From assembly GCA_902762655.1 (NCBI GenBank), contig CACWOZ010000006.1, positions 1-64,000 of the forward strand: a stretch of 64,000 nucleotides of DNA. Direction: 5' to 3'. Below the pieces are notes generated by a model that was given only the letters and a program-made list of their open reading frames with translations, was not told where the DNA came from and ran no database searches. How positions within the stretch are numbered: position 1 is the first letter of the stretch; every line of letters begins with the position of its first letter. The DNA is from an uncultured Bacteroidia bacterium (GTDB lineage: Bacteria > Bacteroidota > Bacteroidia > Bacteroidales > UBA932). The translations under genes and the position numbers were made by a program. This document shows positions 24,291 to 43,242 of this stretch, piece after piece.

Positions 24291-24361
24291 GCAGGATTAG
24301 CACATCGGTAGTGCATTGGCTTCCCAAGCCAAGGAGGAGGGTTCGACTCCCTTATCCTGCT
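24291..24361 (+). tRNA. tRNA-Gly (CCC)
   Basis: 71 bases fold as a cloverleaf: acceptor GCAGGAT with ATCCTGC, D arm GCAC/GTGC, anticodon stem TTGGC/GCCAA with loop TTCCCAA (anticodon CCC), and a TTCGACT T-loop. The discriminator base is T, as expected for glycine. The CCA end is not encoded. A strong terminator follows at once. Confidence 0.93.
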
Positions 24362-36204: not shown

Positions 36205-37173
36205 TTACCCCAGCGCCTCAACTTCCTTCACGGAAAGTCCGGTGCCTTCGGCCACCTGCTCTATGGTCAAACCCATCGCAAGAAGCCTCTTCGCGATATC
36301 TGCAGCCTTGGCGGCTTCGCCTTCCGCCCGGCCTTCCTCCTTACCGTAGTCGAAATTGGCCTTGGCGATATCCTCCCGTTCGTTGTCATCAAGCGATGAG
36401 GAGAAATAGTTCTTTCTTTCTTCGTCGCTCATATTATTGATGCGTGCTATGTCCATAAGTTTGTGAAATCTGGGATTTACCTCTTTCGGTATACCGACAA
36501 AGTTAGGAAAATTCCTGAACATGTAGCACCATTCTTCCAGTTTGTTCAGTTCAGTTCCGGCCTTTTTCATTCTGGGTAGTTCCAGCATGTAAAGACGCAA
36601 CTGCGTGCCGTAGAGTTCCTGTGTATCGGTCTCTCGGAACTCATAGCGGAAAAGAATCTTGTTCCTTGGAACAACGCCGTGCGAGGTGATGAAGTTCTGT
36701 ATCGCAATGACCCGTACCGAATCGTAGTTGTACTTTATGTCACCCGCCTTCACCTGCCGGTGGATGGCGGATGCGCCATAGAAGAAGATGCGGCTACGGA
36801 AATCGCTTTTGCGATTGTTCTGCATTTCGACGATGAACTGCCTTCCGTCCGAGGTGTGGCAGATGACATCCAGCGAAGCCTGCTTATCGTTTACGGTGGC
36901 GGCAAGGCCTTGGTTCGGGAGATAGGATATGCTGACGATGTCTTCTTCCAGGATGTCCGCCAGAAGCATGATGAGCGGTTCCGGATTGTTCAGGAACACC
37001 CACTGAAACGCCCAGTTGTTCGTCAGGTCCGCGTAAGTTGAATTCATTATCCTGTCTGCGAGAAGGATCTTTTCCTCTTCGGTATACGAGGAATAGTTGG
37101 GATTGGCGTCGATAATTTCTTTGTACTGCACCAGCTCTGCCGGCCAGATACCTTTTGAGTAGTTCTTTTTCAT
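36205..37173 (-). CDS. Rpn-family recombination-promoting nuclease / putative transposase, copy 2
   Basis: 322 residues, about 90% identical by eye to the copy at 28934-29914 and in the opposite orientation. The nuclease residues are kept (SLDVICH, FIVEMQ). Differences are scattered substitutions plus a shorter C-terminal repeat: GRAEGEAAKAAD here against GRAEGIAEGEAAKAKA, one 12-base unit fewer. The start at 37173 matches copy 1. Upstream lie the shared leader (37204-37307) and a decayed half of the 106-bp palindrome. The frame stays open to 37359, but that stretch is non-coding leader. Confidence 0.88.
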   Translation of the reverse strand: MKKNYSKGIWPAELVQYKEIIDANPNYSSYTEEEKILLADRIMNSTYADLTNNWAFQWVFLNNPEPLIMLLADILEEDIVSISYLPNQGLAATVNDKQASLDVICHTSDGRQFIVEMQNNRKSDFRSRIFFYGASAIHRQVKAGDIKYNYDSVRVIAIQNFITSHGVVPRNKILFRYEFRETDTQELYGTQLRLYMLELPRMKKAGTELNKLEEWCYMFRNFPNFVGIPKEVNPRFHKLMDIARINNMSDEERKNYFSSSLDDNEREDIAKANFDYGKEEGRAEGEAAKAADIAKRLLAMGLTIEQVAEGTGLSVKEVEALG

Positions 37174-37203
37174 AGCGGCAAGATGGGAATGACCGATTGA
37201 CCC

Positions 37204-37307
37204 GCCAAGGAAATGCGGCAAACATTTCGCGGCGGGCCGTTTTTCTTTTGATGATTGCGTGTTTTTACAAGGCCATAAGAAAAATCTTATGGTTTGGCTA
37301 AACTCAA
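37204..37307 (-). repeat. Rpn leader repeat, copy 2
   Basis: Minus-strand match to 28801-28902 and 19952-20055, with the hairpin CCATAAG-ATTTTT-CTTATGG at 37273-37292 and the CGCGAAATGTTTGC and TTCCTTGG blocks in the same order. Confidence 0.75.
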
Positions 37308-37321
37308 ATTGAATATGTTTC

Positions 37322-37364
37322 GTACCACACAACTCCTTATTGCACAACAAAATACACAAATGAC
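37322..37364. repeat. Decayed half of the Rpn-associated palindromic element
   Basis: GTACCACACAACTCC, then TTGCACAACAA and ACACAAATGAC follow the left arm of the 106-bp element (GTGCCACGCAACT, TAGCACAA, ACGTGAAATGAC) in order and spacing. The right arm is not recognisable. The following stretch to 37545 is AT-rich and shows no gene. Confidence 0.55.
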
Positions 37365-37545
37365 ATAAAATATTGTATTATCTGTTACACGGCTATTAAT
37401 ACTTGGGGCCAGGGATCTCAATCAAGGGTTCTCCCAAGGCTTAGGACAGTTTCGAAAGCGAAGAGAACGCATTATTCGTGAATCACCTCGTCACAATAAT
37501 CGTAAAAATAGTTATAGGTATATATTATTTATAATATAATTTTAT

Positions 37546-37553
37546 TATTTTTG
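37546..37553 (+). promoter_or_regulatory. -7 box of the HTH operon
   Basis: TATTTTTG fits TAnnTTTG, 16 bases before the ATG at 37570, in a very AT-rich stretch. Confidence 0.5.
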
Positions 37554-37569: not shown

Positions 37570-38193
37570 ATGAATAAAATAATCTTCGAAGAAAAAGGGG
37601 CGGAAATTCTGCGAAAGATCGGAATGACCAAAACGGAATTTGCTGAAAAAATGGGAATCAAAAAGCAAAATGTCAACGCTTTGTTCAAGACACACAATCT
37701 CGCCACCATCAGAAAGGCTGCCACGGTGATGAATGTACCATTCGAAATGCTGATTGGATACTCTGAAGAGCCGGACATATTTGCAATGGACCTAGTTCCT
37801 ATAGTGGATGGTGTGACGCCAACTTCAAGCAGCGAAAAAGGGAATGTGTTTGATTTCTTTGCCGGACGGCCGCGCGAAGCGTTCTGGTTTTTGGTAAACA
37901 ATCAAAAAGGAGAACTGAAAGATGTATTCTACCGGACAGATATTGGAAGTATAAATCTTGTCTGGGGTGACGTTGCCAGTGGAGTTTGCAGAGTATTGAT
38001 GTGGCAGATAAAGAGCAGATTCTTCTCAACCGTAAACGAGATGATTGATACCATCACAAACACTGCTATCAAAGGAACTGTTCTTTCTGATAATGACGCG
38101 AAACTATTATTGGGTTTCGGAACATTCAGGCTTGAAATAGTTCGAGATACAAACTGGATACTATCGGATTTTTATGTAATAAGCGGCGAATGA
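37570..38193 (+). CDS. HTH protein fused to a PBECR/colicin-E5-like endoribonuclease-type domain
   Basis: 207 residues. Residues of about 10-65 form an XRE-type helix-turn-helix (GMTKTEFAEKMGIKKQNVNALFKTHNLATIRKAATVMNVP). From about 100 on, KGELKDVFYRTDIGSINLVWGD and then TVNEMIDTITNTAIKG resemble the polyvalent-protein 'barnase/EndoU/colicin E5/D' nuclease families (PBECR), whose core is YxxDIGxIxLVWGD followed by GLxHIIxKH. Here that last motif reads GVCRVLMWQ, without the His, so the domain may be inactive or a nuclease-derived antitoxin. First gene of an AT-rich operon; its TGA overlaps the next ATG (ATGA). The nuclease link is from memory and needs a profile search. Confidence 0.62.
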   Translation: MNKIIFEEKGAEILRKIGMTKTEFAEKMGIKKQNVNALFKTHNLATIRKAATVMNVPFEMLIGYSEEPDIFAMDLVPIVDGVTPTSSSEKGNVFDFFAGRPREAFWFLVNNQKGELKDVFYRTDIGSINLVWGDVASGVCRVLMWQIKSRFFSTVNEMIDTITNTAIKGTVLSDNDAKLLLGFGTFRLEIVRDTNWILSDFYVISGE

Positions 38194-38750
38194 ATATGGG
38201 ACGATATTTGGCAATAGGGATACGCATACGGGCAGAAGTCAATAAAGATGTCCTGCCATTGAAAGAAAGTATTTTCCATCTGGATTGTCCACCGGATCTG
38301 TTCGACTATTCCAATTTTGGGGCTTCTGGTATCTTGAATCTTGACAAAAGGATTAAAGTTGAAGATATCTTGGCAATAAGAAAGAGTGTTTTGGAAATAT
38401 GTAATCTGTCCGACGAGTTTGTGTCAAAGGATGGTGTAGATGAAACCGACATATTGGAAGCAGAGGCATCAACGTGCGGCTCTATAGCAGAATTGGAACG
38501 GTTAGCGGATAATAATAAAAATGTCCTGTATTCGTTCAGGACAGAAACCAGGCCTTGGCTTATAGGGGATGAGGAGGAGGATGTTTCAGTTTATTATTCA
38601 TATTTCATTTTCTATATATCATCGTTCAAGTATTATACTGAAAATGATTATTCTATGGACAAAACCACAATGATGATTGAAAAGGCAATCAAAGCCAATC
38701 TTGAAGATAGTTTTCTTTCTCCATTAGTATCGTGTTTTATTACATTGTAG
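38190..38750 (+). CDS. Unknown protein of the HTH operon
   Basis: 186 residues, no motif recognised. Opening MNMGRYLAIGIRIRAEVNKD, then an acidic helical body (ILEAEASTCGSIAELERLADNNK) and an aromatic strand region (DVSVYYSYFIFYISSFKYYTE). Translationally coupled to the HTH gene by a 4-base overlap. The next frame begins before this one ends, and their join (AIKANLEDSFLSPLVS followed by FSMANYVTVFFLAFEARF) reads like one continuous protein, so a single frameshifted gene of roughly 350 residues is a real alternative. Confidence 0.6.
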   Translation: MNMGRYLAIGIRIRAEVNKDVLPLKESIFHLDCPPDLFDYSNFGASGILNLDKRIKVEDILAIRKSVLEICNLSDEFVSKDGVDETDILEAEASTCGSIAELERLADNNKNVLYSFRTETRPWLIGDEEEDVSVYYSYFIFYISSFKYYTENDYSMDKTTMMIEKAIKANLEDSFLSPLVSCFITL

Positions 38751-38758
38751 TTTTTTCT

Positions 38759-39268
38759 ATGGCAAATTATGTGACCGTTTTTTTTCTTGCTTTTGAAGCA
38801 AGATTCAGAAAGACATTGGATGCTTATATTTATTCGATGAAAAAGGATCTTCCTGTGGAGCCTATTCTAAAACTATGGATTGGTATTTATGATGTGTTGG
38901 GTATTAAACAGAATTCATATGAAAAGCTGTTAATGGACGAACATATTAAGTCGCTGAGGAATTCCACGGTTGGGCATATGGTTAAACTCTCTCAGGAAAC
39001 ACCTCATAAAGATTCGTCAAGCCTCAGTTTTTATTGGCTCGATATTGAAAAAGAAGTTGTAATCAGAAGAAGAGAAGGCAGTTCTTTTGATAACTTGCAT
39101 TACAAAGCAAGTGGTATTCAACTGTACATTTATTCTTGTATCGACAATATTGAATTCCAGGGAGATTTCGGCCTGTTAACCGCACCCTTACGGCATTATT
39201 TCAATAATAACCCTTTTGCAGGAAATCTGTCTGTAGAAATATTACCAAATCGAGCCTTGTCCATTTGA
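38759..39268 (+). CDS. HEPN-like protein (candidate RNase) of the HTH operon
   Basis: 169 residues from the ATG at 38759; a GTG at 38732 would overlap the previous gene. Mostly helical in its first half. IKSLRNSTVGHMVK carries an R-N-x4-H signature, which fits the Rx4-6H catalytic motif of HEPN ribonucleases common in toxin-antitoxin, abortive infection and CRISPR systems. Preceding helices (EARFRKTLDAYIYSMKKDLP, LKLWIGIYDVLGI) fit a HEPN bundle. The C-terminal half is not recognised. The motif is short, so the assignment is an inference supported by the HTH/nuclease-like partner. Confidence 0.5.
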   Translation: MANYVTVFFLAFEARFRKTLDAYIYSMKKDLPVEPILKLWIGIYDVLGIKQNSYEKLLMDEHIKSLRNSTVGHMVKLSQETPHKDSSSLSFYWLDIEKEVVIRRREGSSFDNLHYKASGIQLYIYSCIDNIEFQGDFGLLTAPLRHYFNNNPFAGNLSVEILPNRALSI

Positions 39269-39379: not shown

Positions 39380-41035
39380 ATGATTGAAAGATTTCTCAAA
39401 GGCGAAGGGCAGGGACTGGAGTTCAATGTTCCGGAGCATTTCAATTTTGCATACGATGTGGTGGACGCCTGGGCCGAGGAGGCTCCGGAGAAGCTGGCGC
39501 TTATCTGGACCAGCGACACCGAGCCTGAGCGCAGGCTGACTTTCGCCGACCTCAAGCGCGAGTCCGACAAGGTCGCGGGTTACCTCAGCTCGCTGGGCAT
39601 CGGCCGCGGCGATTTCGTAATGCTCATCCTCAAGCGCCGTCTCCCCTTCTGGACCACGATGCTGGCCCTGGAGAAGATCGGTGCCGTCGCCATCCCCGCC
39701 ACCTTCCTGCTGACCTCACACGATATTATCTACCGCTGTAAATCCGCCGAGATCAAGGCCATCATCTGCTGCGGCGACGCCCCCATCCTGGAGAAGGTCG
39801 CCGAGGCGGAGCCCAAGTGCCCTTATCTCGAGAAACTCATAAGCATAGGGCCGCTGGTGCCGGAGGGCTTCGAGGACTTCGAGGCCGGAGTTGCCGCCGC
39901 AACGCCCTGGGAGCGCGGAAACTGGCAGAACGAGAGCGAGGATCCCATGCTGATGTACTTCACCTCAGGCACTTCTGACGAGCCGAAGATGGTGATGCAT
40001 TCGCACACCTACGCCCTAAGCCATCTGGTGACCGCCGCATACTGGCATCAACTCACTCCGGACTCCATCCACTTCACCTATTCCGACACCGGATGGGGCA
40101 AGGCTGTGTGGGGCAAACTCTACGGGCAGTGGATAGTCGGAGCAACCGTATTCGTGTACGACCATGAGAAGTTCGTACCGGCTGAGCTGCTCGCCCTCAT
40201 CGGCAAGTATCGTATCACTTCATTCTGCGCTCCACCAACGATTTACCGCTTCCTCATAAAGGAACACTTCAACTGCTTCGACCTCTCATCCTTGAAGCAT
40301 GTCACCACCGCCGGCGAGGCCCTCAACCCTTCGGTGTTCGAGGAGTTCCATCGCCGCACGGGCCTCTGGATCCACGAAGCGTTCGGGCAGACCGAGACCA
40401 CCCTGACGCTGGGCACTTTCCCCTGGGTAGAACCGCGTCCCGGATCGATGGGCAAGCCCTCCCCTGCATACGACATCGACATCCTCACCCCGGACGGATC
40501 TTCCGCAAAACCCGGCGAGCGCGGTGTCATCGTCATCCGCACGGACCGCAAGCGCCCGATAGGCCTGTTCCTGGGTTACTACCGCAACCCCAAACTCACC
40601 CGCAAGGCCTGGCACGACGGCATCTATTATACCGGAGATGTCGCCTGGCGCGACGAGGACGGTTACTACTGGTTCGAGGGCCGCAACGACGACCTCATCA
40701 AGACCTCGGGCTACCGCGTGAGTCCCTTCGAGGTGGAAAGCGCCGTAATGGGGCATCCGGCCGTAGTGGAATGCGCCGTAACCGGCATTCCGGACCCGGA
40801 AGAGGTGCGCGGAACGGTGGTAAAGGCCACCATCGTAGTGGCATCGGAATACAAGCCGCAGCTCGCGAACGAACTATCGCGCAAGGCCCTCATCAAGGAC
40901 ATCCAGACCTTCGTGAAGAACATCACCGCGCCCTACAAATATCCGCGCGTGATAGAGTTCGCCGACGCCCTCCCCAAGACCATCAGCGGCAAGATCCGCC
41001 ACGTGGAGATACGGGAGAACGACGCGAAGAAATAG
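39380..41035 (+). CDS. AMP-binding acyl-CoA synthetase (medium-chain/acetyl-CoA synthetase-like)
   Basis: 551 residues. It activates a carboxylic acid with ATP and joins it to CoA. The P-loop-like YFTSGTSDEPK is at residues 193-203; HEAFGQTETTL, YYTGDVAWRDEDGYYWFEGRNDD and the C-terminal KTISGKIRHVEIR (catalytic Lys) are the standard adenylate-forming motifs. Substrate chain length is not readable; the medium-chain/'acetyl-CoA synthetase-like' group fits best. Monocistronic; ends 2 bases before the convergent AlkZ-related gene. Confidence 0.9.
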   Translation: MIERFLKGEGQGLEFNVPEHFNFAYDVVDAWAEEAPEKLALIWTSDTEPERRLTFADLKRESDKVAGYLSSLGIGRGDFVMLILKRRLPFWTTMLALEKIGAVAIPATFLLTSHDIIYRCKSAEIKAIICCGDAPILEKVAEAEPKCPYLEKLISIGPLVPEGFEDFEAGVAAATPWERGNWQNESEDPMLMYFTSGTSDEPKMVMHSHTYALSHLVTAAYWHQLTPDSIHFTYSDTGWGKAVWGKLYGQWIVGATVFVYDHEKFVPAELLALIGKYRITSFCAPPTIYRFLIKEHFNCFDLSSLKHVTTAGEALNPSVFEEFHRRTGLWIHEAFGQTETTLTLGTFPWVEPRPGSMGKPSPAYDIDILTPDGSSAKPGERGVIVIRTDRKRPIGLFLGYYRNPKLTRKAWHDGIYYTGDVAWRDEDGYYWFEGRNDDLIKTSGYRVSPFEVESAVMGHPAVVECAVTGIPDPEEVRGTVVKATIVVASEYKPQLANELSRKALIKDIQTFVKNITAPYKYPRVIEFADALPKTISGKIRHVEIRENDAKK

Positions 41036-43170: not shown

Positions 43171-43242
43171 TACCCCCGAGGCGAATCGAACGCCTATCGT
43201 CGGAACCGGAATCCGAAATTCTATCCATTAAACTACAGGGGC
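43171..43242 (-). tRNA. tRNA-Arg (CCG)
   Basis: 72 bases on the minus strand. Acceptor GCCCCTG pairs with CGGGGGT (G-U pairs included), anticodon stem TCGGA/TCCGA with loop TTCCGGT (anticodon CCG), T-loop TTCGATT, discriminator A. CCA is not encoded. Confidence 0.9.

Follow-up and report, generated by a model that had tools for sequence, protein, structure and literature searches.

The three coupled genes at positions 37570-39268 of the window (the whole stretch of 64,000 nucleotides analysed here) combine an HTH gene, P1, with two tandem paralogues, P2 and P3. The part of our interpretation that is best supported is the regulation: a presumably self-repressing HTH protein heads the P2-P3 operon here and ends it in a relative. 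For the more comprehensive reading, namely that the locus is an island-borne conflict cassette which regulates itself and that the new two-paralogue P2-P3 pair is its likely effector, we see an even chance.

The ORF listing contains three successive open frames on the plus strand, 37570-38193, 38190-38750 and 38759- or 38732-39268. P1 (37570..38193, +; 207 aa) consists of an XRE HTH module (residues 1-70) and a degenerate PBECR1-like domain (residues ~88-207). For P2, the homologues favour the ATG at 38196 (MGRY...; 38196..38750, +; 184 aa), and a start at 38190 is possible (186 aa). For P3, they favour the ATG at 38759 (38759..39268, +; 169 aa). Since homologues exist for all three, P1-P3 are genuine genes and not chance frames. 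The window provides a single allele of each gene, the compared genomes are mostly drafts, and the homologues, which are 22-46% identical over their full length, are too distant for selection tests.

The initial annotation had described the frames as coupled, equipped with one promoter box, different from their neighbours in base composition and located beside an Rpn element. All this was borne out. P1 and P2 are joined by an ATGA overlap, followed by an 8-base gap to the ATG start of P3. Upstream of P1 lies the TAnnTTTG box TATTTTTG (37546..37553, +), the putative operon promoter, which by its motif we take to be a -7 box of the Bacteroidota type. The GC content is 0.413 in P1, 0.375 in P2 and 0.361 in P3, as compared to 0.524 in the window and 0.60 in the next gene. 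The gene at 36205..37359 on the minus strand belongs to the Rpn/PDDEXK_2 transposase family (PDDEXK_2, E 9.9e-34) and forms the island context outside the operon. Downstream of P3, a GC-rich gene begins at 39380, which by eye is acyl-CoA-synthetase-like. Elsewhere in the window, Rfam gives two tRNA genes, at 24291-24361 (+) and 43171-43242 (-).

The HTH proposed for P1 could be confirmed. Its profile scores stay below the cut-offs (HTH_3, 19.8 bits with a cut-off of 23; HTH_26, 18.2 bits with a cut-off of 22), and residues 1-70 share 53-69% identity with the module in 11 further copies, namely those of 10 of the 17 loci described in the following and the copy in genome G772; the copy in L006 clears the HTH_3 cut-off with 23.5 bits. 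A search with P1 gave matches in 15 of the 199 genomes of the family, its own genome counted. Apart from P1 itself these amount to 19 places, 17 of which were reached via the HTH part (L005-L021) and 2 via the PBECR part only (L022, L023). The 17 loci differ in their C-terminal part; thus a common HTH module is combined with variable cargo. In L005 the cargo is PBECR1 (59.4 bits over profile positions 2-102), and in L007 it is DUF1016_N/YhcG_C (Pfam), a fusion that L008 and L019 resemble as judged from their sequence only. L006, L009, L011, L012 and L014 show sub-threshold similarity to LPD3 (16.1-23.2 bits, cut-off 27); L020 is akin to this LPD3-like group, with no LPD3 match listed for it at E <= 0.01. 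Short HTH proteins of 87-110 aa are found in L010, L015, L016, L017, L018 and L021, and L013 has a different C-terminus for which Pfam gave no match. No match to P1 was obtained in the plasmids or in the viral contigs. The phages yielded 17 weak matches: 2 of Streptococcus, and 15 whose hosts are Helicobacter and which fall mostly within the PBECR half.

Some further observations were made at these loci. L015, L016, L017 and L021 (102-104 aa) represent a second HTH subclass with a MGIARQNV helix and without an anchored operator of the kind described below, and L015-L017 share near-identical DNA immediately past the stop codon. A contig of the viral collection, L050 (3971-4318 and 4343-7386), encodes a 115-aa relative of the HTH module, located 24 bases upstream of a gene for HsdM (Pfam), which is followed by a gene that is HsdS-like by eye. 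Just behind the HTH-LPD3-like genes, and convergent with them, lies a conserved structured RNA-like element of ~120 nt with a TAnnTTTG box of its own; it is also present behind the short HTH gene of L010. Copies are found on the minus strand of L011 (2211-2347), L010 (1771-1908), L012 (2206-2340) and L020 (2190-2324) and on the plus strand of L009 (858-994), L014 (898-1034) and L006 (903-1038). Its structure, which was derived from the same alignment, has 31 pairs, 11 of them with both partners changed (0 of 500 shuffles). There was no match in Rfam at gathering scores and none in the plasmids. With a covariance model, 26 sources yielded no copies beyond the 7 loci on which it was trained; the genome of L011 contains this one copy, and a search of the window's genome gave none. 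Possibly, the element is an RNA partner of the HTH genes it follows.

A common palindrome emerged from the inverted repeats listed upstream of the HTH genes. Its consensus, GTAATA-N6-TATTAC, was read by eye from the AT-rich regions that were later scored, window and G772 included. Among the 17 HTH-module loci other than P1, 11 (L005-L012, L014, L019, L020) have a palindrome that matches in at least 11 of 12 positions, a score that none of 300 shuffles equalled at any of these loci (shuffling preserved dinucleotides, with a plain shuffle as the fall-back). In 9 of these 11 strong loci the -7 box begins 15 bases past the start of the site; L014 differs, and L011 has no perfect box. The remaining six loci score 7-10 of 12. 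L016, L017 and L021 reach 10, away from the usual offset and with 9, 13 and 14 of 300 shuffles as good; L015, L018 and L013 reach 9, 8 and 7.

In the window, the candidate operator ATAATATAATTTTATTAT (37531..37548, +), with the half-sites ATAATA and TATTAT around TAATTT, agrees with the consensus at 10 of 12 positions. A score of 10 is reached by 14 of 300 shuffles somewhere in 150 nt. The offset to the -7 box is exactly 15 nt, as in the nine strong loci, and when all 38 TAnnTTTG boxes of the window (both strands) are anchored alike, one scores 10 and the other 37 score 7 or less. The longest perfect inverted repeat before P1, TATATTATTTATAATATA (37521-37538, arms of 8), overlaps the candidate operator; by itself it means little, because shuffling the last 90 bases 1000 times produced a repeat with arms as long in 74 cases. 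In G772, the operator occurs with 11 of 12 positions before P2 (0 of 300 shuffles) and with only 7 of 12 before the HTH gene. No anchored operator was found upstream of P2 in the two other relatives with a P2-P3 pair: the best site of G697 matches 9 of 12 positions and does not lie at the box, and that of G503 matches 8 of 12, the 150 bases containing no box. Taken together, the HTH module of P1 is probably the repressor of its own operon and acts via the candidate operator, and autoregulation would apply to two of the four P2-P3 loci, the window and G772.

The recurrence of module and operator allows a wider reading, which we put forward tentatively. Across one family, an XRE HTH with its operator in the -7 box might serve as a portable autorepressor for swappable conflict cargo, be it a fused PBECR1, LPD3-like or YhcG/PDC-S02 part or the unfused P2-P3 pair as a new two-paralogue effector. 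The window would then hold a spent PBECR domain that was turned into a part of the repressor and now holds or senses P2-P3.

The P2-P3 pair is rare. Used alone, P2 matched only its own genome when 295 genomes of the order were scanned, and two genomes, its own and G503, when 299 of the family were; P3 alone matched 3 of 299 of the family (its own, G503 and G400, the last of which we take as chance). A two-row P2 profile was run against 250 genomes of the genus and found P2 in four, i. e. that of the window, G503, G697 and G772. Neither a four-row P2 profile in 329 genomes of the family nor a P3 profile in 305 genomes of the order gave an additional credible case. In all four genomes with P2, P3 follows directly, at a spacing of 2-10 bases. 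Alignment of the P2 and P3 profiles with hhalign resulted in a probability of 95.6 (E 1.1e-8, 156 columns), which remained at 77-95% with any single genome left out. Of 60 column shuffles none reached 50% (maximum 1.1), and reversed profiles gave 0.3 at most. By these profile comparisons, P2 and P3 are paralogues.

The ferredoxin-like fold has the topology beta-alpha-beta-beta-alpha-beta. The model of P2 (pLDDT 82.1, pTM 0.78) comprises a strand (3-15), a helix (55-68), two further helices (84-91 and 97-106), two strands (115-125 and 128-146), a helix (153-168) and a final strand (178-183), so that P2 is predicted to be an alpha/beta protein of ferredoxin-like order with a helical insert. In the fold comparison, no match was good enough for naming a function. 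The model of the window P3 was unusable (pLDDT 39.1); with respect to all three homologues this protein carries an internal in-frame deletion of ~35 residues in its N-terminal half.

The window P2 and P3 found nothing in Pfam, NCBIfam and PADLOC at E <= 10, and the one PHROG match of each (E 0.068 and 0.43) was discarded as being at chance level. For the homologues, no credible family was obtained in Pfam and PADLOC at E <= 1; DUF4180 for the G697 P2 (16.3 of 25 bits, a chance-level Pfam row) and JetA of PADLOC for the G503 P2 (a single weak row of 12.7 bits) were rejected. There were no matches to P2 or P3 in the plasmids and phages, to P2, P3 or the P2 alignment in the viral contigs, or to P2 and P3 in the genome contigs, a scan which reaches close relatives only. 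The P2-P3 family thus appears to be new to the libraries searched, and it may have been described under another name.

An alternative is a decaying island, in which P1 without its RNase site and P3 without part of its N-terminal half would be a functionless remnant. The R and Q that replace histidines in P1 (see below), the ~35-residue deletion in P3, the adjoining Rpn-type gene and the occurrence of P2 in only 4 of 250 genomes, with none further credible in 329, agree with this. Yet all three frames have stayed open across 169-207 codons, the deletion in P3 is in frame, and both the -7 box and the candidate operator are present. We consider decay unlikely.

The neighbourhoods of the pair differ between the four loci. 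In the window the order is HTH-PBECR (P1), P2, P3. In G772, the gene after P2 and P3 encodes 128 aa and shares the HTH module of P1, with gaps of 4 and 3 bases between the three; directly behind come two genes, one HigB-like and one for an HTH_3 protein of the HigA type (L037 4860-5517). In G503, the pair lies between two ORF6N genes, of which the upstream one ends 192 bases before P2. In G697, a nucleotidyltransferase/DUF6577 gene and a gene with an NYN domain (L036 4191-5935) are located on the upstream side on the opposite strand, and a gene that is transposase-like by eye follows the pair. No HTH-module gene adjoins P2-P3 in G697 and G503. A conserved gene neighbourhood had been named as a check by the initial annotation: the order P1-P2-P3 is confined to the window among the four loci, whereas the P2-P3 pair as such is conserved and is accompanied by the HTH module in two of them, in different gene order.

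With two loci lacking an HTH-module neighbour, P2-P3 could be an independent two-gene module that came to lie behind an unrelated HTH-PBECR gene and is co-transcribed with it by accident. Against this speaks G772, where the HTH module stands beside P2-P3 as well and the candidate operator is found at the P2 promoter; we regard the accident as quite improbable.

As to the second half of P1, the initial annotation had seen an HTH fused to a domain resembling endoribonucleases. The fusion is there, and the likeness to PBECR1 (PF18809) is real, albeit at 22 bits, i. e. under the Pfam gathering cut-off of 27.6; the histidine of the helix, however, is gone. The match extends over residues 120-178 (37927..38103, +), corresponding to profile positions 2-66 of 104. 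In an alignment of the helix that took in P1, L005, L022 and two phage members, P1 reads GVCRVLMWQ as compared to GVRHILEKH in L005, GLKHILDKH in L046, GLEHILKRR in L047 and GLAKLVKFH in L022. R141 and Q146 of P1 occupy histidine positions of L005, and where P1 has R141 the four aligned PBECR1 members carry H, H, H and K. At the active-site positions, R141 and the C-terminal S199 of P1 correspond to H and T in L005 and L046. According to Iyer et al. (2017, PMC5512222), the active site pairs a histidine of the N-terminal helix with a C-terminal T/S; among the six PBECR families one carries Arg instead of this His, and the PBECR copy in the MuF protein of phage Mu is inactive. The sub-cut-off score and the R and Q replacing the histidines of the relative make RNase activity of P1 doubtful; probably, its PBECR1-like half is not an active RNase.

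The family with Arg at the place of His (PMC5512222) and the presence of R141 and S199 could be taken to mean that P1 is an active one-gene toxin-repressor with a PBECR RNase, and that P2-P3 are antitoxin or immunity proteins. But P1 matches PBECR1, whose four aligned members have H, H, H and K at this place. Moreover, the relative L005 is followed by a reductase-like gene on the opposite strand and not by P2-P3, and no PBECR gene was found beside P2-P3 in G503, G697 and G772 within the flanks read. We regard an active P1 of this kind as quite improbable, too.

HEPN ribonucleases have a conserved R-x4-6-H motif. P3 had been proposed to be HEPN-like on account of the letters R-N-x4-H (R67, N68, H73; 38957..38977, +), which are not conserved: the three positions are S, E and Q in G503 and I, N and E in G697, and the segment is absent in G772. 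Since the motif is found in none of the three homologues and P3 is a paralogue of P2, which was confidently modelled as an alpha/beta protein and not as a helical bundle, the HEPN reading falls in practice. Hence a locus of the toxin-antitoxin or abortive-infection kind that relies on two RNases, the PBECR domain of P1 and a HEPN domain in P3, is very improbable. The R-N-x4-H letters and the 22-bit PBECR1 match would speak for it; against it stand the lack of the motif in all three homologues, the paralogy to alpha/beta P2 and the loss of the PBECR histidines.

The autoregulated conflict cassette that we favour could work as follows. The HTH module of P1 would bind the palindrome set in the -7 box and thereby repress P1-P2-P3, a step for which the operator sequence speaks. 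P2 and P3, tandem paralogues that are paired in all four loci found, are likely the functional unit, presumably as a heterodimer. The PBECR1-like half, presumably an RNase no longer, may now serve the repressor for binding or sensing. If P1 were lost or titrated upon stress or infection, the operon would be de-repressed, and P2-P3 might then halt the cell or stop the invader, much as toxin-antitoxin or abortive-infection systems do. We infer the conflict function from the company of the HTH module elsewhere, i. e. PBECR1, YhcG (which scores as PDC-S02) and the HTH gene before HsdM. The tight coupling of P2, P3 and HTH gene in G772, with the operator before P2, argues for the cassette. Against it counts that no family or convincing fold match indicates a role for P2-P3, and that the link between HTH and P2-P3 consists of two loci with unlike gene orders, the other two having no HTH-module neighbour. 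If the cassette is real, P2-P3 would be a new protein family made of two paralogues, under the control of a repressor with an operator recognisable from the sequence; operator and HTH module would provide a handle for locating similar cassettes with differing cargo in relatives.

In agreement with the initial annotation, no described system with these three parts was found in the libraries Pfam, NCBIfam, PADLOC and PHROGs, and the cassette can be compared with known systems in its parts only. Type II toxin-antitoxin loci are marked by two coupled, autoregulated genes and by a toxic product that the other neutralises; P2 and P3 are coupled in 4 of 4 loci, and autoregulation is predicted for two of these. 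Two PADLOC candidates are touched by the HTH proteins: P1 matches PDC-M69A with its HTH (E 5.4e-7), a match limited to the HTH part of component A, and the HTH fusion L007 matches PDC-S02 (E 6.2e-117); the window P2 and P3, by contrast, match no PADLOC model at E <= 10. PBECR1, the phage Barnase-EndoU-ColicinE5/D-RelE-like nuclease, is similar to P1 over the stretch given above. P1 differs from it by the score under the cut-off, by R141/Q146 instead of histidines and by the fusion to an HTH in place of a position within a polyvalent or virion protein. Single genes that unite an HTH with a BECR-fold domain are in print as BECR toxin-HTH antitoxin fusions (gp49-HTH, HigB-HigA and RelE-YiaG; PMC11980606). 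In the part of that source dealing with them they are listed in toxin-antitoxin order, whereas P1 has the HTH first, its BECR-like domain is degenerate and two more genes follow. In the hyperpromiscuous Panacea antitoxin network (PMC10440598), one small domain likewise occurs with many effectors; the shared domain of the loci studied here, in contrast, is an XRE HTH and is often fused to its cargo.
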